Positions 19,245 to 29,511 of a stretch of DNA of 64,000 nt are shown here, piece by piece. Made by a program: the position numbers and the translations under genes. The notes under the pieces are model-generated. The model ran no database searches. It was not told the DNA's origin and saw only the letters and a list, made by a program, of their open reading frames with translations. Source of the stretch: an uncultured Sulfuricurvum sp. (lineage in GTDB: Bacteria > Campylobacterota > Campylobacteria > Campylobacterales > Sulfurimonadaceae); assembly GCA_903844635.1 (NCBI GenBank), contig CAIMUF010000081.1:1-64000 (forward strand), written 5' to 3'. Each line of letters starts with the position of its first letter. Position 1 is the stretch's first letter.

Positions 19245-20128
19245 ACGTCTTAATTATCGAAAATGAGATTTATCTCGCACAAAGTATTGCTTCTAAACTC
19301 AGTGATCTAAATCACAATTGTGATATTAGCAGCTCAACTAAAGAAGCACTAAAAGGTACGCCATACGATGTCATTCTCCTCTCAACCAACATTAGCGGCC
19401 AAGATATTTATCCTGTTATCGAAGCGTACAAGGATGCCGTCGTTATTTTGATGGTTTCCTACGTCAGTAATGATACCGTTTCAAAGCCCCTCGCAGCAGG
19501 GGCAAAAGATTATATTCTAAAACCATTTATGATTGAAGAGTTAATTCGTAAAATTCAACATTTTCAAAATCATGAACGACTTCGCCGTCAAAATCAAACC
19601 TATGAACGTTATTTAGCCCATAGCTTTACGAGTGTTAAAATTGATGAAGATTTTGATAAAACAGAACTCCCCATTATGATATGCAGTGGTTATCAAAAAT
19701 ATGCCGATGCCTTTGCATTTGGATATGCTGAACATCATCGAGGAAATCTTCAATTTATTTCCCTTAGTTCGCCTAAAGCACTCCATGAAATTGCACTTTT
19801 TTCCAATACGAATGTCCTTTATATTACGGACTTTCAAAATCTCAAAAAAAGTGATCATAAAACTTTTTTTGAACTGATTGAAAAAAGGTCATGTATTATT
19901 TCCAGTACAGAGCATGTTGAAAATGTTCCTTTCCGTATCATCGAAATTGAAAGCGAAAGTCAACTCTTTGATCAAGGAGAAATCTTACCGATTGAGGAAT
20001 ATGTCAAGTACATCATGACCAATTTTCAAAACCGTTTTCCAGATACAGAACTTTCAAAAAAACTAGGTATTTCACGCAAAAGCTTATGGGAAAAGAGAAA
20101 GAAGTATGGCATCATCAAGAAAAAATAG
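19241..20128 (+). CDS. Orphan atypical response regulator, HP1021/Cj1608-like
   Basis: A 295-residue protein: receiver-like domain (about 1-120), a central region without any Walker motif (about 125-240), and a C-terminal Fis-like helix-turn-helix (ELSKKLGISRKSLWEKRKKYGI). The acceptor aspartate is replaced by Ser48 (DVILLSTNISG), so classical phosphorylation is unlikely. Lys98 of the LKPF motif is kept. This architecture and the ispDF-regulator-sat-pgpA order match, as far as I recall, HP1021 of H. pylori and Cj1608 of C. jejuni, redox-responsive regulators also linked to oriC. Start at ATG 19241 in a 4-bp overlap with ispDF; the tracked TTG start adds four residues. Confidence 0.85.
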   Translation: MNVLIIENEIYLAQSIASKLSDLNHNCDISSSTKEALKGTPYDVILLSTNISGQDIYPVIEAYKDAVVILMVSYVSNDTVSKPLAAGAKDYILKPFMIEELIRKIQHFQNHERLRRQNQTYERYLAHSFTSVKIDEDFDKTELPIMICSGYQKYADAFAFGYAEHHRGNLQFISLSSPKALHEIALFSNTNVLYITDFQNLKKSDHKTFFELIEKRSCIISSTEHVENVPFRIIEIESESQLFDQGEILPIEEYVKYIMTNFQNRFPDTELSKKLGISRKSLWEKRKKYGIIKKK

Positions 20129-21296
20129 AGCTCTTTATATTGACCAAGAGGCATTAAGCGCACTTACCCTTCTAAAATCGGGAATGCTCTCTCCTGTCAC
20201 ACAACTCATGAATGCACAGCAATGCATGGAAGTACTTCAAAGTGGACTTTTCAATGGAACAACGTTTCCATTCCCACTCATTCTTTCGCCCAATGGTAAG
20301 ACCAATGAAACTATTTTACTCAGTACCAAAAAAGGAGAAATTCTCAATTTGGTTTGTGAGAATGCAATCGTTGGGGAGATATGTGTTGATGAAGTTTTTC
20401 CTATCAACCCTATTGAGCGCCTAAAACAAATTTACGGCACTGAAGACCTTGCTCATCCTGGCGTAAGTGCCACCTACAAACGACTAGGAAAATATGCTCT
20501 TTGCGGAGAATATTCGATTGACCTCTCCCCTATCGAAGCAATCCAATCAAAGATCACAAAAGCTCAAGAACAAATTTCGGCTAAACACACAACGGCTATT
20601 TTCATGGCAGCCAATCCTCTCCACCGTGCCCATGAGCGGCTTATTCGTCAAAGCTTGGATCGAAGTGATTTAGTCGTTATATTTTTATTCAAACCTTACG
20701 CAAGCAGTGATCTTACTTATGAACTTCGTCATGAAGTACTCGAATTTTTCATCACTAATTATCTTCCTCAAGGTCGAGTCATTGTTGTTCCACTGGAAAA
20801 TAGCTATATCTTTGCAGGAAGTAATGAAGTAATTCTTGATGCTATTGTTGCTAAAAATTACGGGTGCGATCGCCTTATGATTGGTCAAAATCATGCAGGT
20901 ATCGGTATGTATTATGATAGAAATGCGAATAAATCTGTTGTTGATCGTCTAGTCGGTATTAACATTGAGGTGTGTATCGCCAGTGAATACGTTTATTGTA
21001 ACCTGTGTAAAACACTTGTCAGCATACAAACTTGTCCACATGGGCATCATCACCATATTTCTTACAATTCCGAATCCATTTTGGAGCTTATGAAACAAGG
21101 ACTTCTCCCCCCGGCCGTCTTGGTTCGAAAAGAAATTTCTTCCCTTATCGTCTCAACGCTTCATCCAAATCGATTTAAAAATCTAGCCAAGCTTTATTAT
21201 GACATTATGCCAACAAATGGACTGCTTGAAGAACATAGCGAAAAAGATTTTTATGTCGAATTGATGAATCTTTACCAAACTACTTCTCTAACCTAG
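20106..21296 (+). CDS. sat: ATP sulfurylase (sulfate adenylyltransferase) family protein with altered active site
   Basis: A 396-residue protein with the N-terminal PUA-like and catalytic domains of ATP sulfurylase. The HxxH signature is intact (NPLHRAHERLIR) and a Cys4-type metal knuckle is present (YCNLCKTLVSIQTCPHG). But the QXRN motif reads MAAN, so the Gln and the sulfate-binding Arg are missing, and GRDHAG reads GQNHAG. It may not activate sulfate normally. It overlaps the end of the regulator gene by 23 bp, and pgpA follows. The symbol reflects family and position only; function as a true sulfurylase is doubtful. Confidence 0.75.
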   Translation: MASSRKNRALYIDQEALSALTLLKSGMLSPVTQLMNAQQCMEVLQSGLFNGTTFPFPLILSPNGKTNETILLSTKKGEILNLVCENAIVGEICVDEVFPINPIERLKQIYGTEDLAHPGVSATYKRLGKYALCGEYSIDLSPIEAIQSKITKAQEQISAKHTTAIFMAANPLHRAHERLIRQSLDRSDLVVIFLFKPYASSDLTYELRHEVLEFFITNYLPQGRVIVVPLENSYIFAGSNEVILDAIVAKNYGCDRLMIGQNHAGIGMYYDRNANKSVVDRLVGINIEVCIASEYVYCNLCKTLVSIQTCPHGHHHHISYNSESILELMKQGLLPPAVLVRKEISSLIVSTLHPNRFKNLAKLYYDIMPTNGLLEEHSEKDFYVELMNLYQTTSLT

Positions 21297-21304
21297 GAAC
21301 GATT

Positions 21305-21817
21305 ATGAAACTAAACTGGCTTTTTCTCACCCTCTTCAAAAGTGGTCATGCACCCAAAGCTCCCGGAACCGTAGGAACACTGGTCTCGCTACCTTTGGGT
21401 GTTGCTATTTTGATGTTTTTTGGATCACAGACTCTTTTTATGTTTTCAGTTTTAATCACCCTTATTGCAATAAAAGCGATTGATAAACACGAAGCTTCTT
21501 GTGAAACTCATGATGATTCACGTATTGTCATCGATGAGCTTGTTGGGATGTGGATTGCCCTTGCTATTGCTCCTGGAATAGCGTTTGGTATGGGAGACTT
21601 AGGCGATTTTAATAATGGAATAGCCATTCAAATTGTATTGAGCTTTATTTTCTTTCGGATTTATGATATCAAAAAGCCCTCTCTTATTGGACGAATTGAT
21701 CGTGAAACCAAAGGGGGATTGGGAGTGATGGGCGATGATGTACTCGCAGGATTTGCAGCAGGAATTACAACTGCATTGGTGTGGCAAGGGATTTTAAAAA
21801 TACAAACGATGATGTAA
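21305..21817 (+). CDS. pgpA: Phosphatidylglycerophosphatase A
   Basis: A 170-residue inner-membrane protein with the PgpA signatures FKSGHAPKAPGTVGTL at the N-terminus, IVIDELVGMWIAL in the middle and DDVLAGFAAG near the end; about four membrane helices. It dephosphorylates phosphatidylglycerophosphate to phosphatidylglycerol. Last gene of the ispDF cluster. It ends exactly where the convergent molybdoenzyme operon ends (21817/21818), leaving no intergenic base. Confidence 0.93.
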   Translation: MKLNWLFLTLFKSGHAPKAPGTVGTLVSLPLGVAILMFFGSQTLFMFSVLITLIAIKAIDKHEASCETHDDSRIVIDELVGMWIALAIAPGIAFGMGDLGDFNNGIAIQIVLSFIFFRIYDIKKPSLIGRIDRETKGGLGVMGDDVLAGFAAGITTALVWQGILKIQTMM

Positions 21818-22318
21818 TTACATCATCATAGGCTCATCTGTTGGTTCTATCTCTTCAAAATCTTCAATAATCTGATCCAACATTCTTTGCGTTTTTTTGA
21901 TTTTAGCTATATTGGCATCAAAAATTGCTTTTGATGCAGGAAATGCTTCGGAAAGTTCCGTGTAAATCAAAATACGCCCTCCAAAATGACGATTAAACTC
22001 ATTAAATGCCTCTTGCAGATACGAACGTCGTGTTGTATGGCGAAACAGTGCACGAATCATTTTTTTACGCTCTTTGATTGGGATCGATTCATCGATTGCT
22101 TCCGCAACACGTTTAATATCCATACGAGAAAAATAAACACCGCTATGATAAGGAGCAAGAAGCTTATCCCCTAGCTCATCCACAAAACCAGGAACGTATT
22201 CCTCAGCTTCTTCTTCACTTTTTTCATCACTGGATGGCTCACAACTTCCGCTCTCACATTTACCTCGTACAAACTGGTCAAACTCAGCTTTTAAATCACT
22301 AAAATCCGTTTTAATCAT
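21818..22318 (-). CDS. Unknown protein, last gene of the molybdoenzyme operon
   Basis: A 166-residue protein I do not recognise. It has a short N-terminal helix, a CESGSCEP segment with two Cys, an acidic stretch (EKSEEEAEEY), then a mostly helical basic region (PIKERKKMIRALFRHTTRRSYLQ) and a C-terminal helix ending in EPMMM. No signal peptide. It overlaps the preceding gene by 8 bp, so it is translated with the accessory genes for the molybdoenzyme. A role in assembly or cofactor handling is inferred from position only. Confidence 0.7.
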   Translation of the reverse strand: MIKTDFSDLKAEFDQFVRGKCESGSCEPSSDEKSEEEAEEYVPGFVDELGDKLLAPYHSGVYFSRMDIKRVAEAIDESIPIKERKKMIRALFRHTTRRSYLQEAFNEFNRHFGGRILIYTELSEAFPASKAIFDANIAKIKKTQRMLDQIIEDFEEIEPTDEPMMM

Positions 22319-22757
22319 TCTTTTCTCCTGTAGTTAATTCATAAAAATAGTGGCACATTGAGTTCAGTGCAATATCATCTTCAAACTCTGCGCTGTCTGC
22401 AAATTTTTCTAAAGCAAGTGGCATAATAAGCTCACCGATAAGTTCACCTTCGACAATACGTATAAAATCACAATATCCATGATCTTGTGCCAGATTAGAG
22501 GCTCTGTCCAATAAAGCAAATGCTTCCTCTTGGTACTCCGACGAAATCACGGCACCGGAAAGTTTTGAACTGCGCATTTGCGAAATGGTAAATGCCACAT
22601 CATCAGGACGAATATTCATCGGGATTGCCATAGCATTTATGCCGTTGCCTTTAAACAATTTATTGACCGTAACGGAAAAACGATTGCTGTGTGCATTTTC
22701 TGCAATAAATCCATAAAGCAATGTTGCTGCTGTAATTGAATTATCATTGTTCATCAT
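22311..22757 (-). CDS. Orphan shikimate-dehydrogenase N-terminal-like domain protein
   Basis: A 148-residue protein. Residues about 12-80 follow the pattern of the AroE substrate-binding domain: LYGFIAENAHSNRFSVTVNK resembles the GxPIxHSxSPxxHN signature, then the F-x-G-x-N-A spacing and a PDDVAFTISQMR helix. Where AroE has the catalytic Lys (NVTxPxK) this protein has GAVISSEYQ, and the NADP-binding half is absent. It is therefore unlikely to be an enzyme of the shikimate pathway. It starts right after the polyferredoxin stop (TAAATG) inside the molybdoenzyme operon, so an accessory or chaperone role is possible. The fold call is by eye. Confidence 0.65.
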   Translation of the reverse strand: MMNNDNSITAATLLYGFIAENAHSNRFSVTVNKLFKGNGINAMAIPMNIRPDDVAFTISQMRSSKLSGAVISSEYQEEAFALLDRASNLAQDHGYCDFIRIVEGELIGELIMPLALEKFADSAEFEDDIALNSMCHYFYELTTGEKND

Positions 22758-23855
22758 TTATTCAAGCCCCCATAATTCTTTTGCTTCTTCATCTTCTAAA
22801 CGGCAACGACGGCATATTCTATCCCCAATACTGGAACTAAAGAGTACATCGCACTCATCACACCGTCGCACTCTGAAAGTTACAAGATTCTGCACCGTTG
22901 GCTTGTACCATTCTGCTAAATTGTAAGATTCTGAAAGGGTAATTGCCTTTGGTTCGCAAACATCGTGGCACAAATGGCATTTAATACACAAAAATGGATC
23001 AAAATCAATTTTAGAATTACGAACATCAGATGTTAAAGCCCCTGTCGGACAAGTTCTATAACACATTTCACATGCTGTACACAGAGTCTCATCCATTAGT
23101 TTCTGAGACGTAAACGATATTTTTGACCCATCTACAACATGAAGAATTGAAGGAGTTGGCAAGCGCTTGATAGCGGTAAAAAAAAGTTTACGACGATCAG
23201 TAATTTTTTTTGTTCTCAACTCTTTAGTATGCGAACTGTCGGTTGAATACTCTACAAACTCATCCGTCGTTTTCTGAATCTCTTTTTCAAAATCTCCTCG
23301 AATTTTACCCAATCCACGAAGATGAAACGTCTTGAAGAAATCTCTTCTCTCAACGATCACTTCATTTTCACCCAAATCACTGTATCCAACATCCGAGCAT
23401 TCTACTCTAAACTCTGATTCAATCGCTTCGAGCAGATAGTTGGTATTCTCAAGAGTACTAGCTAGTGTCGCTAATACATTCGTTCCAATCTCACATTGTG
23501 CACAGTGACCCGTATCTAAAACAACACCATGTTTCATTTGAGCAAATGAAATAAGCTGTTCATGACTCAAAGCCGCGACACAAGGGACATTTTTTTGACA
23601 TGAAATTAGATTATCTTCATCGGAAGCAAATGCAAAGAAAAAGTCAGTTGAACTGAAATCATCCAAATTCAACGCCTCAATAGGACACACTGCAACGCAT
23701 CCCGCACAACCAACACATTGCGCCTGATTGATAGAGGGAAGGCGTCCTGTAATAGTAATAGCACTGACAGGACACACATCAACACAATGAGTACAAATCG
23801 AATTGACACTCAATGCTCGAACGCATCTGCTGGGAGAGAGGATTAAAAGACTCAT
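22758..23855 (-). CDS. Polyferredoxin-like 4Fe-4S accessory protein of the molybdoenzyme operon
   Basis: A 365-residue soluble protein with no signal peptide. N-terminal cluster motifs CTHCVDVCP and CVGCAGCVAVCP (about 21-60), a middle region with further Cys (SCQKNVPC, GHCAQCEIG), then CTACEMCYRTCP and CIKCHLCHDVCEP (about 255-305), and a C-terminal zinc-ribbon-like set CDEC...CRRCR. So at least four [4Fe-4S] clusters. It overlaps the TorD-like gene by 4 bp. It may pass electrons to the catalytic subunit or help insert its cluster before Tat export. NapF/FdhX-like accessory ferredoxins are analogous, but I cannot name a family. Confidence 0.75.
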   Translation of the reverse strand: MSLLILSPSRCVRALSVNSICTHCVDVCPVSAITITGRLPSINQAQCVGCAGCVAVCPIEALNLDDFSSTDFFFAFASDEDNLISCQKNVPCVAALSHEQLISFAQMKHGVVLDTGHCAQCEIGTNVLATLASTLENTNYLLEAIESEFRVECSDVGYSDLGENEVIVERRDFFKTFHLRGLGKIRGDFEKEIQKTTDEFVEYSTDSSHTKELRTKKITDRRKLFFTAIKRLPTPSILHVVDGSKISFTSQKLMDETLCTACEMCYRTCPTGALTSDVRNSKIDFDPFLCIKCHLCHDVCEPKAITLSESYNLAEWYKPTVQNLVTFRVRRCDECDVLFSSSIGDRICRRCRLEDEEAKELWGLE

Positions 23856-24475
23856 GAAACTTTGGAAACTACTGCGGTTAAGGTTTCATTATCAGAGAGA
23901 ATAAATTCCAATGCCGTTTCAGCAGCATCGTAATACAAAGGGGTTCTGGATTCATATTTCATATTGATGAGATACATCGGTGCCCATTGAAGTAAATGAG
24001 TATTTAAAAAACGATGCTGTACCTCTTGAAGATCACGAACCGCCTCTGAATCGTTTTCTTCCATCGCTTTTTTTTGTGCATCACAAAGATGATGCATAAA
24101 TTCATATTGGATTCCAATATGGTCTGCTGAAACAACACGGGCGATTTCATAATCAACCATAAAATCATATGCACTGTAAATATCAGTGACAGGATTTGCC
24201 CCGCCCGTTTCAATCATTTGGTCCGATCGTGTATAAAAAGTCTCATACGGGACAAGATGTAAAATCGAAAGATTGGTAAAATCCGGATTAAGATATTCTT
24301 CTAAAAGTTTAGAATTACTTACGCTTGTACGTTGTTCCCATTCATTCCAATGAGGAAAAAATTCTAATACTGTCAGATCAGTTTTAAGCGTCTCCAAAAG
24401 TTCACTGTCCAATTCTTGGAGAAGTATTCGAGAAAGAAGTGCATATATATTGCTTCGTGCAATGATCTCATCCAT
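23852..24475 (-). CDS. TorD/DmsD-family molybdoenzyme chaperone
   Basis: A 207-residue, all-helical protein of the TorD/DmsD (NarJ-like) type: an N-terminal RSNIYALLSRIL helix, a LVPYETFYTRSD segment, the typical central Tyr/Asp/His region (DFMVDYEIARVVSADHIGIQYEFMHHL) and a C-terminal helix. Such chaperones bind the Tat signal and catalytic subunit until the molybdenum cofactor is inserted. It follows the catalytic-subunit gene across two hairpins. ATG 24475 was chosen because the family begins near MDEIIARSNIYALL; the tracked ORF adds 14 residues without support. Confidence 0.82.
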   Translation of the reverse strand: MDEIIARSNIYALLSRILLQELDSELLETLKTDLTVLEFFPHWNEWEQRTSVSNSKLLEEYLNPDFTNLSILHLVPYETFYTRSDQMIETGGANPVTDIYSAYDFMVDYEIARVVSADHIGIQYEFMHHLCDAQKKAMEENDSEAVRDLQEVQHRFLNTHLLQWAPMYLINMKYESRTPLYYDAAETALEFILSDNETLTAVVSKVS

Positions 24476-24516
24476 AACGGTTTGGCCTTTTAATAGTGAT
24501 TGTAGGATTGTAACCA

Positions 24517-24557
24517 AAAGGGCTGAAAAGCCCTTTAGAAGTCCCTTTTAGCAAGGG
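24517..24557. repeat. Two hairpins between catalytic-subunit and chaperone genes
   Basis: AAAGGGCT-GAAA-AGCCCTTT (24517-24536, 8-bp perfect stem with a tetraloop) and CCCTT-TTAGC-AAGGG (24543-24557) sit in the 94-bp gap after the catalytic-subunit stop. On the minus strand the larger stem is followed by only a short T run. They could stabilise the upstream mRNA or partly terminate it, so that structural subunits are made in excess over the chaperone and accessory proteins. Confidence 0.6.
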
Positions 24558-24569
24558 GAAGAAAGGTTG

Positions 24570-27500
24570 TTATGCCTTAATATTCACATCATATGATGCT
24601 GGGTCAAGCTTGACCCATGGACGGAAGATATGACGAGGACGTCGAAGCTTGGAATTAGAATCCAATCCGCGTGAAAGTTTATCTCTCCATGCTTGGTAAA
24701 CTTTGAGATTGTTGTCATAATTGACAAAAATATCTCCAATTTTATCTCCTGGCTGTGCCAGTTCAACAAGAACTTTATGGTGCCAACAGTGCATTCCTGA
24801 TACAGGGTCAGGATGAGGAGCCGCCACAGCATTTTGCCATGAACCGCTTAGTCCATCCCACCATACATTTTCAGAATCTCGGTTATATTCAGCAAAACGT
24901 TCTGCTTTAAACCCTTTGATTCCTTCAACATATTTGAGCTTACCTACTTTACCATCCATCTGGATTTCAGCTACCGGTACTCCAAAACTGTTAATTCCAC
25001 TTGTACCACTGTAATCATCGATAATACTTTGACCACCCGCTTTACCTACATTTGCCGGTGATTCTTTGAGAAACTCTTTGTTACTCAAATCACGAGGTGC
25101 TGCACCAGGTGCTACCTTACCGTCACTGACTCCATTAGGAATCGTAACATGATTAGTAAGCTTCCAACGTCCGCCATGATGTGAACACGCAAGTGTTCCA
25201 GGAAGAACACCCTCCGTTGGAACTGCCATCGCTACGAAATGTCCACTCTCTAAGCCTGAAACAGTATCAACAATTTTTACACGAATTGCATCACCGCGTT
25301 TTATACTAAGACGTTTTGCATCTCCCGTACTGATCCAAATTGGATCATGGTTCTGGCTAATTTCCATCAAATGTTTGGAGTTCGCCGAACGAGTATGAAT
25401 ATTATACGGTAAACGGAAAACCGTATTAAGAGCAAACGAATTTTCCTCTTTCATATAGATATGATTAACATGAGAAACGATATGAACCATATCTTCTTTC
25501 TCTTTATCATTACGTGGATAAATTGGCATACCATATTCTGGCCATTTCCAATCTTTTGCTACCCACTGTGTATAAACATCAAGTTTACGTGTTGGAGTAG
25601 TAAAACCTTGTAATTTTTTACCATCGATTTCAATCCCGATTTTTTTCGATTTGCCTTTATCATCATTGGCACTGATAATACCCAAACTATCCACACTAAC
25701 CGAACCTGCATCGTATTTGTGTTCATACGATTCAATTTTGCCCTCTTCAACTTTTAGCTCACGTTCTTGTACATTGTAAATTTTATCTTCTTCGAGCCAT
25801 ACACCATGATCTCTCATATACGAATAAACCGGAAATTCTTCTTTTGTATAGCGTTCATCATTCATAACTGTTTCATGAAGCTTAGGAAGGTTATCTCCAA
25901 ACGCTGCATCGTACCATTCTGGAATGGTAACCGCTTTACCTGGATGACGTTTACTCTCCCACATTTTCTTGATATTCAAACTTCCATCAGGATCAATGTA
26001 ATCCGTACACAATTGGAACCAGAACTCATTCTCTTCCCACACTTCACCAAGACCTGCTTTGATGTGTGCTTCAAGAGTTGCTCGATTTGGATTTTTTGGT
26101 TTCCAACCCGATTTTTCAAGTGCTACACGCAATACCGGCTGACGAAAAGTTGTCCATCGTGCAGGAATTGTTGCTTCTGAGTGCTGATCGTGGCGCTCAC
26201 CCGCAAGCCCAACAGGTAGGACATAGTCCATATACCAATTAGTTTCTGACCAAACCGGAGAGAGGTTAAAGGTAAGTTCCATAAGTTCTTCGTTTTTAAG
26301 TACTTCAATCCAACGGAAACCATCTGGATTGATCCAAACTGGATTGTACATACGAGGAGCATACACTGCCAATTTACTTGGCACTTGTAATCCTCGATCA
26401 TTCCATTTTTTCTGCCACTCTTTATCACTTAACAAGTGTGGAAGAAGATAGGAAAGCTCGTACGTAGTAAGAGGCCATTCAGGTGGCCATGTCAACTCAT
26501 TCCACGCTTTAACTGCAGGAACATCAGCCCCACTTTTACCTTGTCCAACGGTAGCACTTCCACCTTTACCGCCCACTGAAATATCATGAGAGTGATAAAA
26601 CCCGGTTCCACCGACATTACCGATAGCACCGCGTAAACCAGTTACAAAGAACACCGCTTTACCAATCATCCATCCACCACGGTTACCCGCAGCAGCAGCA
26701 CGCCAAACGTATGTAGAGATAGCATCTTCTGCCCAAATAAACATCTCATAAAGTTTTTCAAGTTTGTAGGCTGGAATATGAGTCTCTTTTACAGCAAATT
26801 CCAGAGTATAGGGAGCATACATATCTTTTAAAAGCTCTAAATAACTTTCAAAATCACGCCCTTCAGGAAGTTTGGGGACATACCCCTTTTCTACCATATA
26901 ATTGAGATAATCACTATCGTTCATCAAGGTATCCCAGTTAAACCAACGCTTAACAAAGGCTTTGTTTACGAGATTATCACTCAAAATTCGGCTTGCCAAA
27001 TGAAGGTAGATTACCGTTTCAGTACCTGGCCATGGTGCGAGCCATAAATCCGCAATACCTGCCGAATTCGAAAGGCGTGGATCCATAACGACCATTTTCG
27101 CACCCTTCTTACGAGCATCAGCAATATATGCCGCAGCTTGCGCAAAATAGTGCCCTGCATCCGCTGCGTGTGATGAGTTAAGGAAAATGAGTTTTGCATT
27201 CCCCCAGTCAGGACTTGTACGGTCATCATTCACAAATTGAATCGTCGGGGTACGACCGTTTGCCGAACAAATATTTGTATGTGAGTTATACGAATCTAGA
27301 CCTAAGCTTTCCCAAACTTTAGGAACAAAGCCATTTTCATTCGGACGACCAACATGGTACATAACCGATTTTTTAGAGAGTTCATCCCCTTTACGAATCG
27401 TGTCACCCATCTTTTTACCGATAGTGGTCATCGCTTCATCCCATGTCGTACGTATCCATTTTCCTTCTCCGCGTTTTGAACCCGGAGCACGCTTAAGGGG

Positions 27501-27965
27501 GAATGGAATACGGTCAGGATCGTACATTTGTGACTGAACGGCATACCCTTTGGCACAGTTACGTCCACGTGAACCTGGATGCAATGGATTACCCATGTAC
27601 TTTTTGACCGTCATTGTTTTTTTGTCAACCCATGCTGTCAATCCGCATGACGCTTCACAGTTGGAACAGGCTGTTGGAATAACCATATAGTCATTTACTT
27701 TAATACCGTCTGGATTCTCTTCACTTTGGACACCGTGACGACCGATACCGCCACGCTTCCAGTCTGTACCGTCAAGCTCTTGGAAATTATCCCATTGATC
27801 CAGTGGAGGATAAAATGAAAGCGTATCTGGAGTGTTTGTAAACTTGCTGTTCTCTACAGACTCAGCAGCTGCATCGGTTGTAAATACGCCCTTTGCAATA
27901 GCAGCGCCTGCTACGGTAAACGCTGCACCTTTTAAAAATGTTCTTCTGCTTTCTAAATACATCAT
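24570..27965 (-). CDS. Tat-exported molybdopterin oxidoreductase catalytic subunit (Psr/Soe/Ttr-like)
   Basis: A 1131-residue DMSO-reductase-superfamily subunit. It has a clear twin-arginine signal (ESRRTFLKGA), the N-terminal [4Fe-4S] motif CSNCEASCG...NCAKG (about 100-140), molybdopterin domains (HTNICSANGRTP, whose Cys is a candidate molybdenum ligand; VVMDPRLSNSAG) and a C-terminal dinucleotide-binding domain (FALNTVFRLPYNIHTRSANSKH). It is longer than PsrA (about 760) and ends in a tail of about 150 residues containing a GMHCWHHK segment. With a ferredoxin subunit and NrfD anchor it should exchange electrons with menaquinone. Polysulfide, sulfite or tetrathionate are plausible substrates; none is proven by sequence. 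Confidence 0.85.
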   Translation of the reverse strand: MMYLESRRTFLKGAAFTVAGAAIAKGVFTTDAAAESVENSKFTNTPDTLSFYPPLDQWDNFQELDGTDWKRGGIGRHGVQSEENPDGIKVNDYMVIPTACSNCEASCGLTAWVDKKTMTVKKYMGNPLHPGSRGRNCAKGYAVQSQMYDPDRIPFPLKRAPGSKRGEGKWIRTTWDEAMTTIGKKMGDTIRKGDELSKKSVMYHVGRPNENGFVPKVWESLGLDSYNSHTNICSANGRTPTIQFVNDDRTSPDWGNAKLIFLNSSHAADAGHYFAQAAAYIADARKKGAKMVVMDPRLSNSAGIADLWLAPWPGTETVIYLHLASRILSDNLVNKAFVKRWFNWDTLMNDSDYLNYMVEKGYVPKLPEGRDFESYLELLKDMYAPYTLEFAVKETHIPAYKLEKLYEMFIWAEDAISTYVWRAAAAGNRGGWMIGKAVFFVTGLRGAIGNVGGTGFYHSHDISVGGKGGSATVGQGKSGADVPAVKAWNELTWPPEWPLTTYELSYLLPHLLSDKEWQKKWNDRGLQVPSKLAVYAPRMYNPVWINPDGFRWIEVLKNEELMELTFNLSPVWSETNWYMDYVLPVGLAGERHDQHSEATIPARWTTFRQPVLRVALEKSGWKPKNPNRATLEAHIKAGLGEVWEENEFWFQLCTDYIDPDGSLNIKKMWESKRHPGKAVTIPEWYDAAFGDNLPKLHETVMNDERYTKEEFPVYSYMRDHGVWLEEDKIYNVQERELKVEEGKIESYEHKYDAGSVSVDSLGIISANDDKGKSKKIGIEIDGKKLQGFTTPTRKLDVYTQWVAKDWKWPEYGMPIYPRNDKEKEDMVHIVSHVNHIYMKEENSFALNTVFRLPYNIHTRSANSKHLMEISQNHDPIWISTGDAKRLSIKRGDAIRVKIVDTVSGLESGHFVAMAVPTEGVLPGTLACSHHGGRWKLTNHVTIPNGVSDGKVAPGAAPRDLSNKEFLKESPANVGKAGGQSIIDDYSGTSGINSFGVPVAEIQMDGKVGKLKYVEGIKGFKAERFAEYNRDSENVWWDGLSGSWQNAVAAPHPDPVSGMHCWHHKVLVELAQPGDKIGDIFVNYDNNLKVYQAWRDKLSRGLDSNSKLRRPRHIFRPWVKLDPASYDVNIKA

Positions 27966-27973
27966 TTACCTCT

Positions 27974-28873
27974 TTAGCTCATATTTAACAATTGTGGGAT
28001 AACAAGCCAAACGTGTTTAGCTACCCATAAACCGACCAATGCTGATACAGCAGCGATCTTCAACAAATAATACGACTCTTTCTTAATACTCAAACAGACA
28101 AGAACCATTGGGACAATAAACGCCATGATTTGTCCAATCCAGAACATAGCCGTATACTCTCCGCCTTTAATAAACTCTAAGGTAGCTGCTACCTCTTCTG
28201 CTTTCATTCCGCCGAAAATATATTCCGCCATATAAAGAATAAATGCTGAAAATGCACTCAGTCCTAAAATAATTCCAAGATCTTTTTTGATTGAATCAGA
28301 AAATTTATTTCCGCCTAACAAAATCATTGTTGCAGAACCGGCTAACAACGCTGCCAAAATCATTTGTGCTGATTCCGTTGGCATTTGCCACAACTCACGT
28401 GCTGTCGATTCAGCCATAAGCCCCGCGGTGTACAATGTAACTGGGATACCTAATAAAACAGTCCATCCCAAAAATTTATCGTACATTGCTTCATCTTTTT
28501 TCAAGTAAATAGCATATGCCATAGCGAAAAGAAGACCAACAAAACCAGTTGCCATCCATGCACCAATCGTAATTGCTGATGTCAAATGAGGATAAAAAAA
28601 GATATGCCAAAAACGGAACATCTGATGTAGATCAATGACCGTAAAAAATAAAAATAAGTGAATAAATACAATTGAAATAGCTACCACTGGTAAACGGATA
28701 AAACCTGTCTCATTCGGATATTTTTTCAATAAGAAAAAGCCAAGGAAAATAATACCGGTACCGATACTTTTAGCCCACATATTCATCGTAATAATCCAAC
28801 CCCAGACAATTCCCGGAAGAGGAACGTCAAGAACGACTATCGCATTCGTTGCTGCAATTGCTTCGTGTACCAT
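27974..28873 (-). CDS. NrfD/PsrC-family membrane anchor subunit
   Basis: A 299-residue integral membrane protein with about eight or nine helices, of the NrfD/PsrC type (for example VIDLHQMFRFWHIFFYPH and PVTLYTAGLMAESTARELW, the latter like the quinone-site region of this family). It anchors the complex and exchanges electrons with the menaquinone pool. Its ATG overlaps the ferredoxin-subunit stop (TAATG), and the catalytic-subunit gene follows 8 bp later. Confidence 0.88.
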   Translation of the reverse strand: MVHEAIAATNAIVVLDVPLPGIVWGWIITMNMWAKSIGTGIIFLGFFLLKKYPNETGFIRLPVVAISIVFIHLFLFFTVIDLHQMFRFWHIFFYPHLTSAITIGAWMATGFVGLLFAMAYAIYLKKDEAMYDKFLGWTVLLGIPVTLYTAGLMAESTARELWQMPTESAQMILAALLAGSATMILLGGNKFSDSIKKDLGIILGLSAFSAFILYMAEYIFGGMKAEEVAATLEFIKGGEYTAMFWIGQIMAFIVPMVLVCLSIKKESYYLLKIAAVSALVGLWVAKHVWLVIPQLLNMS

Positions 28874-29511
28874 TAGTGGTGCCCTCCTAAAGGGAGATGA
28901 GTAAGTTTATTAAAGAGGTTATGTCCCTCTCCACGGAATGATGCCAATGGATTTAACTGAACATTTCCACCACCAACATAGAAATGGTGAGGATCGGTTC
29001 CTTTTTCCGGTTTACGCACTTGTACATTGCCTTGATGTTGCTGGATATATTTGCTGATATTCGACAATGGATCATCTAAATCTCCAAATATATTCGCTTC
29101 AACCGGACATGCTACAACACATGATGGCATCATAGAACTTGCAATACGGTGGGCACAATAGGTACATTTGTCCGCAGTTTGTGTTTGTGGATCAATATAA
29201 ATTGCACCATATGGACATGCCATAACACATCCAGCACACCCGATACATCGATCTTTATCAATATTAACAATGCCATTCTCAAGATAGTGTAGTGCACTAA
29301 CTGGACAAATTCGCTCACACGGTGCATTCGCACAGTGATTACAACGAAGCGGAGTAAACGTCCGTCTTGTCTCAGGGAACGATCCCACATCAACATATTT
29401 TACACGAAGACGCCATGTACTCAGTGGAACTTCATTTTCCACTTTACATGCAATCTCACAGCCCTTACAACCCATACAAAGGTGAAGGTCTACCAAGAAA
29501 CCTAACTGCAT
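28873..29511 (-). CDS. Four-cluster ferredoxin subunit of the molybdoenzyme (PsrB/DmsB type)
   Basis: A 212-residue protein with four [4Fe-4S] motifs: CMGCKGCEIAC, CNHCANAPCERICP, CIGCAGCVMACP and CTYCAHR...CVVACP. It is the electron-transfer subunit between the NrfD anchor and the catalytic subunit and would ride through Tat with the latter, having no signal of its own. First gene of the operon. ATG 29511 was chosen because AAGGAG stands six nt upstream and MQLGFLVDLHLC is a typical start; the tracked ORF is 11 residues longer. Confidence 0.9.
   Translation of the reverse strand: MQLGFLVDLHLCMGCKGCEIACKVENEVPLSTWRLRVKYVDVGSFPETRRTFTPLRCNHCANAPCERICPVSALHYLENGIVNIDKDRCIGCAGCVMACPYGAIYIDPQTQTADKCTYCAHRIASSMMPSCVVACPVEANIFGDLDDPLSNISKYIQQHQGNVQVRKPEKGTDPHHFYVGGGNVQLNPLASFRGEGHNLFNKLTHLPLGGHH

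Follow-up and report, generated by a model that had tools for sequence, protein, structure and literature searches.

The first 64,000 nucleotides of contig CAIMUF010000081.1 from an uncultured Sulfuricurvum sp. (Campylobacterota), referred to here as the window, contain seven genes at positions 21818-29511 that encode a molybdoenzyme and its accessory proteins. All seven are real genes, and they are conserved. All of the open reading frames (ORFs) lie on the minus strand and are tightly packed, with neighbours that abut or overlap by a few bases, and the full order is found again in dozens of Campylobacterota loci, so the arrangement is not a product of chance. Motifs and domains identify three of the genes, in the order B-C-A, as a complex iron-sulfur molybdoenzyme (CISM) of the DMSO reductase superfamily. 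By sequence comparison, its catalytic subunit A groups with no characterised enzyme among the TtrA, ArrA, Psr/Phs and Aquifex-type SoeA references. With slightly less than even confidence, we favour a role for the enzyme as a periplasmic, menaquinone-linked oxidoreductase of sulfane or polysulfide sulfur or of sulfite, acting mainly in the oxidative direction in core sulfur oxidation, where we infer both the substrate and the direction.

The B-C-A enzyme

The three subunits and the features of A that bear on its placement are as follows (TAT, twin-arginine translocation; Mo-bisMGD, molybdenum bis-molybdopterin guanine dinucleotide).

28873..29511, minus strand: B, iron-sulfur electron-transfer subunit, 212 residues (Fer4_11; cysteine positions; start conserved in homologues)
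27974..28873, minus strand: C, NrfD/PsrC-type integral membrane quinone-binding anchor, 299 residues (PF03916, 46.8 bits; hydropathy segments)
24570..27965, minus strand: A, catalytic Mo-bisMGD subunit, 1131 residues, predicted to be TAT-exported (MopB domains; AlphaFold and Foldseek fold; own clade)
27930..27947, minus strand: twin-arginine motif RRTFLK, residues 7-12 of A, predicting a periplasmic location (RR, F and K invariant in the family alignment)
27555..27668, minus strand: FS0 [4Fe-4S] motif, Cys100, Cys103, Cys107 and Cys137 of A (PF04879; invariant in the family alignment)
27267..27269, minus strand: molybdenum-ligand cysteine, Cys233 of A, in SHTNICS (aligns with the ligand Cys in the Psr, ArrA, TtrA and SoeA-type rows)
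24573..24755, minus strand: C-terminal extension of A, residues about 1071-1131 (alignment with the family, its relatives, TtrA, ArrA and Psr)

The preliminary description of this DNA had proposed a seven-gene molybdoenzyme system with accessory genes that overlap or abut downstream of a TorD-like gene, and the ORFs, domains, packing and coordinates agree with it, as does the recurrence of the order across Campylobacterota. Pfam and NCBIfam searches found MopB with its FeS (Fe4S4), molybdopterin and dinucleotide-binding (MPT) domains, NrfD, Fer4_11, NarJ/TorD, multiple Fer4 and Shikimate_dh_N; in these searches none of the seven proteins reached an NCBIfam equivalog cut-off. The features that define a CISM are all present, namely a MopB fold with FS0 and Mo-bisMGD motifs, a four-cluster B and a membrane anchor C, and A, B and C presumably form a physical complex. 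B contains 16 cysteines in four 4Fe-4S motifs, and its best NCBIfam match is TtrB (202 bits, under the cut-off of 416). Its longest ORF opens at TTG 29544, with the conserved start MQLGFLVDL at 29511. A sequence search of the PDB with C alone returned zero matches. The AlphaFold model of A, of moderate quality (predicted local distance difference test, pLDDT, 64, from 18 sequences) and good for the fold only, not for substrate docking, matches the MopB structures of acetylene hydratase, Thermus Psr and Shewanella Arr in Foldseek, while the best PDB sequence match of A is Thermus PsrA.

Subunit A had been described as unusually large, which holds against classical PsrA (about 750-805 residues) but not against campylobacterial TtrA-like proteins (about 1000-1025 residues) or its own family (about 1070-1150 residues). 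The C-terminal tail once left unassigned is likewise mostly ordinary: in the alignment, residues 945-1040 form an enlarged loop, with an insert of about 40 residues in Sulfuricurvum and some relatives, and residues ~1040-1070 close the MPT domain in the way seen in TtrA, ArrA and Psr. What stands is a true extension of about 60 residues, beginning near residue 1071 (GD-V-YQ-WRD-RRP-RP) and conserved throughout the family. It also occurs in the Rhodococcus and haloarchaeal relatives and in part in an Azoarcus enzyme, while the aligned TtrA, ArrA and Psr sequences lack it.

Placement and distribution of the catalytic subunit

A phylogeny of 34 catalytic subunits places A in a separate clade with full support (100/100). 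References were drawn from NCBIfam searches in the same phylum (full-length matches, under the curated cut-offs) and from reading of operons, in a sample without SrdA, ArxA or experimentally studied SoeA. The clade includes cytoplasmic relatives from Thermomicrobium, Rhodococcus RHA1 and Natrinema, which carry no TAT motif and in which B and C appear to be fused. Its sister group (100/98) comprises the enzyme of Azoarcus sp. KH32C and an 853-residue paralogue from Sulfuricurvum. The ArrA-like, TtrA-like, Psr and Aquificota SoeA-type references all fall outside the clade, with a deeper branching order of low support (51/20); the SoeA-type reference is a single, long-branched sequence assigned by its A-B-C operon and a sequence motif, and its position is unsure.

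Membership of the Psr/Phs, TtrA and ArrA groups was rejected. For PhsA the score of A is 131.8 bits (cut-off 694), and A lies outside the Psr/Phs clade; it scores 45.7 bits for TtrA (cut-off 1750) and 73.5 bits for ArrA (cut-off 1600), and is separate from both the campylobacterial TtrA-like and the ArrA-like references, which are themselves below cut-off. SoeABC would require cytoplasmic A and B, and A carries RRTFLK. The phylogeny gave no close placement with the TtrA, ArrA, Psr/Phs or SoeA-type references. The proposal of an undescribed respiratory complex survives only in part: the enzyme is separate from the anchored references, but it is an ordinary B-C-A CISM that probably already carries the annotation polysulfide reductase. 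Wells et al. (PMC10100899) reported a sister lineage of TtrA/SrdA that they left unassigned, and this could be the family described here.

Both members of the sister group have contexts of their own. On Azoarcus sp. KH32C plasmid pAZKH (L042, 6311-14202), a B-C-A-TorD-polyferredoxin operon stands beside arsA, ACR3, a two-component system and a PhnD-like binding protein. Its gene order differs from the one known for arx, and the product is possibly an arsenic or a sulfur enzyme. The 853-residue TAT molybdoenzyme (L053, 5826-8983; L054) is found in a few Sulfuricurvum genomes, where it is paired with an Fe-S protein; no anchor was seen next to it.

Within Sulfuricurvum, 35 of 37 genomes carry the gene, the remaining two being incomplete assemblies. 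Across a sample of 200 Campylobacterota genomes A is present in 28, including all 16 Sulfurimonadaceae; it also occurs in 17 of the 61 sampled Aquificota genomes and in Myxococcota metagenome-assembled genomes. Among the carriers are Sulfurimonas, Sulfurovum, Thiovulum, Persephonella and Sulfurihydrogenibium yellowstonense. A Sulfurovum mangrovi plasmid (L041, 8001-11169) holds an A gene frameshifted between two overlapping ORFs and unannotated in the record. In Sulfuricurvum, several Sulfurimonadaceae and related loci B is adjoined by hisD, and in three Campylobacterota lineages the opposite, accessory end is flanked by pgpA-sat-regulator-ispDF (at 20106-21817 of the window, in L041 and in L050). 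This synteny points to vertical inheritance, and the proximity of sat is therefore not in itself functional evidence.

Sulfur context, direction of the reaction and alternatives

The preliminary description had named no substrate. Gene neighbours in other lineages tie the enzyme to sulfur oxidation, of which it may be an unrecognised step. In Aquificota the typical order is rhodanese, YeeE sulfur transporter, rhodanese, A'B'C'D', B-C-A-TorD-polyferredoxin, FadL porin and an SCP2-like gene. The core of this cluster, with the rhodaneses, the YeeE transporter and the type II molybdoenzyme, is kept in Myxococcota, FadL and the SCP2-like gene being reported for Aquificota. A'B'C' is an enzyme of the type II DMSO reductase family: A' scores 735-833 bits to TIGR03479 (cut-off 985), B' exceeds the TIGR03478 cut-off with 522 bits, and C' combines EB_dh with cytochrome c. 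In Sulfuricurvum and other Campylobacterota A'B'C' is encoded at a different place in the genome, together with a rhodanese; the Sulfuricurvum locus has a FadL porin nearby as well (L204-L208). Among the cytoplasmic relatives, those of Rhodococcus adjoin metallo-beta-lactamase-fold hydrolases, DsrE and TusA, and two of the haloarchaea adjoin rhodanese and TauE. In the 200 Campylobacterota genomes, A shares 16 carriers with SoxB (Fisher 5e-9 at the genome level, 0.08 at the genus level) and 14 with A' (8e-10 and 5e-4), and it occurs in none of 34 TtrA carriers and none of six ArrA carriers.

The type II enzyme with its rhodanese is conserved across sulfur-oxidising Campylobacterota, Aquificota and Myxococcota, and we know of no named function for it. 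Its loci include L204 (same genome as the window, contig C60, 97-4155), L205-L208 and L113 (2569-7914), with a gamma subunit that carries heme b and cytochrome c. In several Campylobacterota assemblies (G148, G153, G250, G256 and G287) the catalytic gene is split or contains stop codons, through either decay or assembly error.

Sulfurimonadaceae mostly use O2 and nitrate as electron acceptors, and S0 in some species (PMC7952632). Carriage of A by every sampled member of this family, together with its relatives in aerobes, argues for a core oxidative role over that of a facultative reductase. Under this proposal, TorD would hold A during insertion of Mo-bisMGD and FS0, with the polyferredoxin, the AroE-like pseudoenzyme and the 166-residue protein assisting assembly. 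A-B would then be exported via TAT and dock on C. Periplasmic sulfane or polysulfide sulfur, or sulfite, would be oxidised at A, and two electrons would pass from FS0 through the four clusters of B to C and on to menaquinone. Sulfane sulfur and sulfite are both kept as candidates because S0 respiration, but no growth on sulfite, is reported for Sulfurimonas hydrogeniphila NW10 (PMC7952632).

An extension of this proposal, which we judge unlikely, joins B-C-A and A'B'C', with rhodaneses, YeeE and FadL, into an undescribed periplasmic pathway in which two molybdoenzymes would process elemental or sulfane sulfur. A'B'C' would hydroxylate sulfane sulfur bound to a carrier and pass electrons to cytochrome c; the following step would fall to B-C-A, whose electrons would go to menaquinone. 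The pathway would operate besides or instead of SoxCD in Campylobacterota, Hydrogenothermaceae and some Myxococcota. If it exists, it might also provide the oxidative branch of sulfur disproportionation.

Several points weigh against the oxidative proposal. The NrfD-anchored relatives Psr, Ttr and Arr are mostly reductases, and the sister enzyme of Azoarcus adjoins arsenic genes. Sulfur genes were not found beside two of the five annotated cytoplasmic relatives (Thermomicrobium and Natrinema halophilum). The co-occurrence of A with SoxB and A' is partly explained by shared ancestry; half of the Campylobacterota carriers of A are without the type II enzyme, and 12 of the 28 are without SoxB above cut-off. 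The analysis itself covers gene content, cofactor and export motifs, fold, clade, conservation and sulfur neighbourhoods. The physiology of NW10 cited above also weighs against oxidation, a point that presumes carriage of A from the 16 of 16 sampled Sulfurimonadaceae, NW10's own genome lying outside that check.

The reverse direction would make the enzyme a divergent Psr, a periplasmic reductase of polysulfide or S0 fed by menaquinol in H2-dependent sulfur respiration. The B-C-A architecture with an NrfD anchor and Cys-ligated Mo resembles Psr, Thermus PsrA is the best PDB sequence match, and both Sulfurimonas and Sulfurovum are capable of S0 respiration (PMC7952632, PMC10045233). The naming of Psr in Sulfurovum points the same way: the ligand cysteine is at 247 in S. 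indicum PsrA2 and 257 in NBC37-1 PsrA, compared with 171-195 in classical PsrA (PMC10045233), and Sulfurovum members of the family have theirs at position 252. Because this position lies close to the two published ones, the family has probably been labelled polysulfide reductase by similarity in Sulfurovum and other Campylobacterota, and would be uncharacterised rather than unseen. The fit is imperfect in view of published statements on TAT signals and on a PsrA2 without a C subunit (PMC10045233). Against a reductase stand the separate clades of A and of classical campylobacterial PsrABC, the presence of A in all sampled Sulfurimonadaceae although several Sulfurimonas species are listed without S0 as an acceptor (PMC7952632), the sulfur-oxidation genes that adjoin relatives in aerobes, and the low psrA2 transcript levels of S. 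indicum during S0 reduction (PMC10045233). On balance we consider this reading somewhat unlikely. Identity of the Sulfurimonas psrA1B1CDE genes with the operon described here is weakened by a classical TAT PsrA-B-C-A-B cluster in a Sulfurimonadaceae genome, which fits the five-gene name equally well. A 766-residue MopB beside a 521-residue Fe-S protein was rejected as Psr, its neighbours indicating an assimilatory nitrate-reductase-like enzyme.

A respiratory reductase of another oxyanion (tetrathionate, thiosulfate, selenate or arsenate) of the Ttr/Srd/Arr kind is quite improbable. TtrB is the best NCBIfam match of B, A is TtrA-like in length, and the B-C-A order is that named for srdBCA (PMC10100899), but A scores far under the TtrA and ArrA cut-offs, forms a separate clade and is found in no sampled TtrA or ArrA carrier, and NW10, when offered tetrathionate, selenate, arsenate and sulfite, was reported to be limited to S0, nitrate and O2 (PMC7952632). 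Arx-like oxidation of arsenite or antimonite, suggested by the B-C-A-TorD-polyferredoxin logic of the sister Azoarcus KH32C enzyme next to arsA, ACR3, a two-component system and a PhnD-like sensor, is very improbable given that no arsenic genes adjoin A in the Sulfuricurvum, Sulfurimonas, Sulfurovum, Aquificota and Myxococcota loci examined and that nearly all Sulfurimonadaceae, from the sea and from groundwater, carry A, as would be expected of an enzyme with a common substrate.

Sulfur oxidation at vents and in sulfidic waters is mainly the work of Campylobacterota and Hydrogenothermaceae. The handling of elemental sulfur and the enzymes of the oxidative branch of disproportionation have been called unresolved (PMC10045233, PMC12998232). 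A conserved molybdoenzyme with sulfur-oxidation neighbours offers a concrete gene for which oxidation and reduction make opposite predictions, and it is meanwhile unsafe as a metagenome marker of sulfur reduction.

Accessory genes and comparison with known systems

Four genes lie downstream of A.

23852..24475, minus strand: TorD/NarJ-type putative chaperone for A (PF02613, 54 bits)
22758..23855, minus strand: polyferredoxin, cytoplasmic, 365 residues, with a C-terminal CxxC-CxxC zinc ribbon (Fer4 repeats)
22311..22757, minus strand: AroE-N-like protein, 148 residues (Shikimate_dh_N, 29.2 bits, cut-off 27)
21818..22318, minus strand: 166-residue all-helical protein (no domain match)

The longest TorD ORF starts at TTG 24517, with ATG 24475 the likelier start. 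A gene-neighbourhood survey found these four genes after A in most Campylobacterota loci. The block is intact without B-C-A in one genome (L210), and several Sulfurimonas have B-C-A without the accessory genes adjoining. Since each part occurs without the other, the four products would constitute a cytoplasmic maturation module whose genes travel as a unit. The accessory set that had seemed unfamiliar does travel with A, but it looks like such a module and not like additional enzyme subunits.

The polyferredoxin, which has no TAT motif in its sequence, is probably a NapF-like maturation protein, and its homologue in the Azoarcus KH32C operon shares the zinc-ribbon ending. The AroE-like protein corresponds to the N-domain alone of what is in some relatives a two-domain AroE paralogue. 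Compared with the true AroE encoded elsewhere in the same genome (L290), its catalytic Lys is replaced by Gln and its Asp by Met, and the Lys is absent from all 15 AroE-like homologues; shikimate dehydrogenase activity is ruled out by these two losses. The 166-residue protein has zero Pfam or NCBIfam domain matches, and its all-helical model (pLDDT 83) has no PDB fold match at E<=0.001. Its paralogues adjoin the type II molybdoenzyme locus together with an Mrp/ApbC-like Fe-S carrier and, in most loci, an LRV-repeat protein, which suggests a further maturation context.

Among known maturation sets, the module is most readily compared with NapF/TorD-type proteins, with which it shares a cytoplasmic chaperone and a multi-cluster ferredoxin encoded beside a TAT-exported molybdoenzyme. 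The polyferredoxin described here differs in ending in a zinc ribbon, and to our knowledge neither the AroE-like pseudoenzyme nor the 166-residue helical protein has a counterpart in those sets.

The enzyme itself is, like PsrABC and PhsABC, a three-subunit CISM with Cys-ligated Mo, a four-cluster B, an NrfD-type C and TAT export. In contrast to these, its order is B-C-A rather than A-B-C, A is about 330 residues longer and falls in a separate clade, and the family has a C-terminal extension and different accessory genes. With TtrBCA and SrdBCA it has in common the B-C-A order, the TAT signal, the Cys ligand and a large A, and B is nearest to TtrB. From TtrBCA it is distinguished by the clade of A and by zero shared carriers in 200 genomes; for SrdBCA the comparison is one of gene order, SrdA being outside the tree. 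ArrAB(C) and Arx belong to the same superfamily branch and have the Cys ligand, and ArrA has a similar C-terminal end to its MPT domain, but A is in a separate clade, has no adjoining arsenic genes and shares no carriers with ArrA, ArxA lying outside the sample. SoeABC of Allochromatium and Aquifex is also a quinone-linked CISM of sulfur oxidisers, and the cytoplasmic Rhodococcus and haloarchaeal relatives resemble it in location and sulfur context, whereas the family described here is TAT-exported, has an NrfD-like anchor and in the phylogeny stands apart from the Aquificota SoeA-type enzyme, a reference of unsure position.

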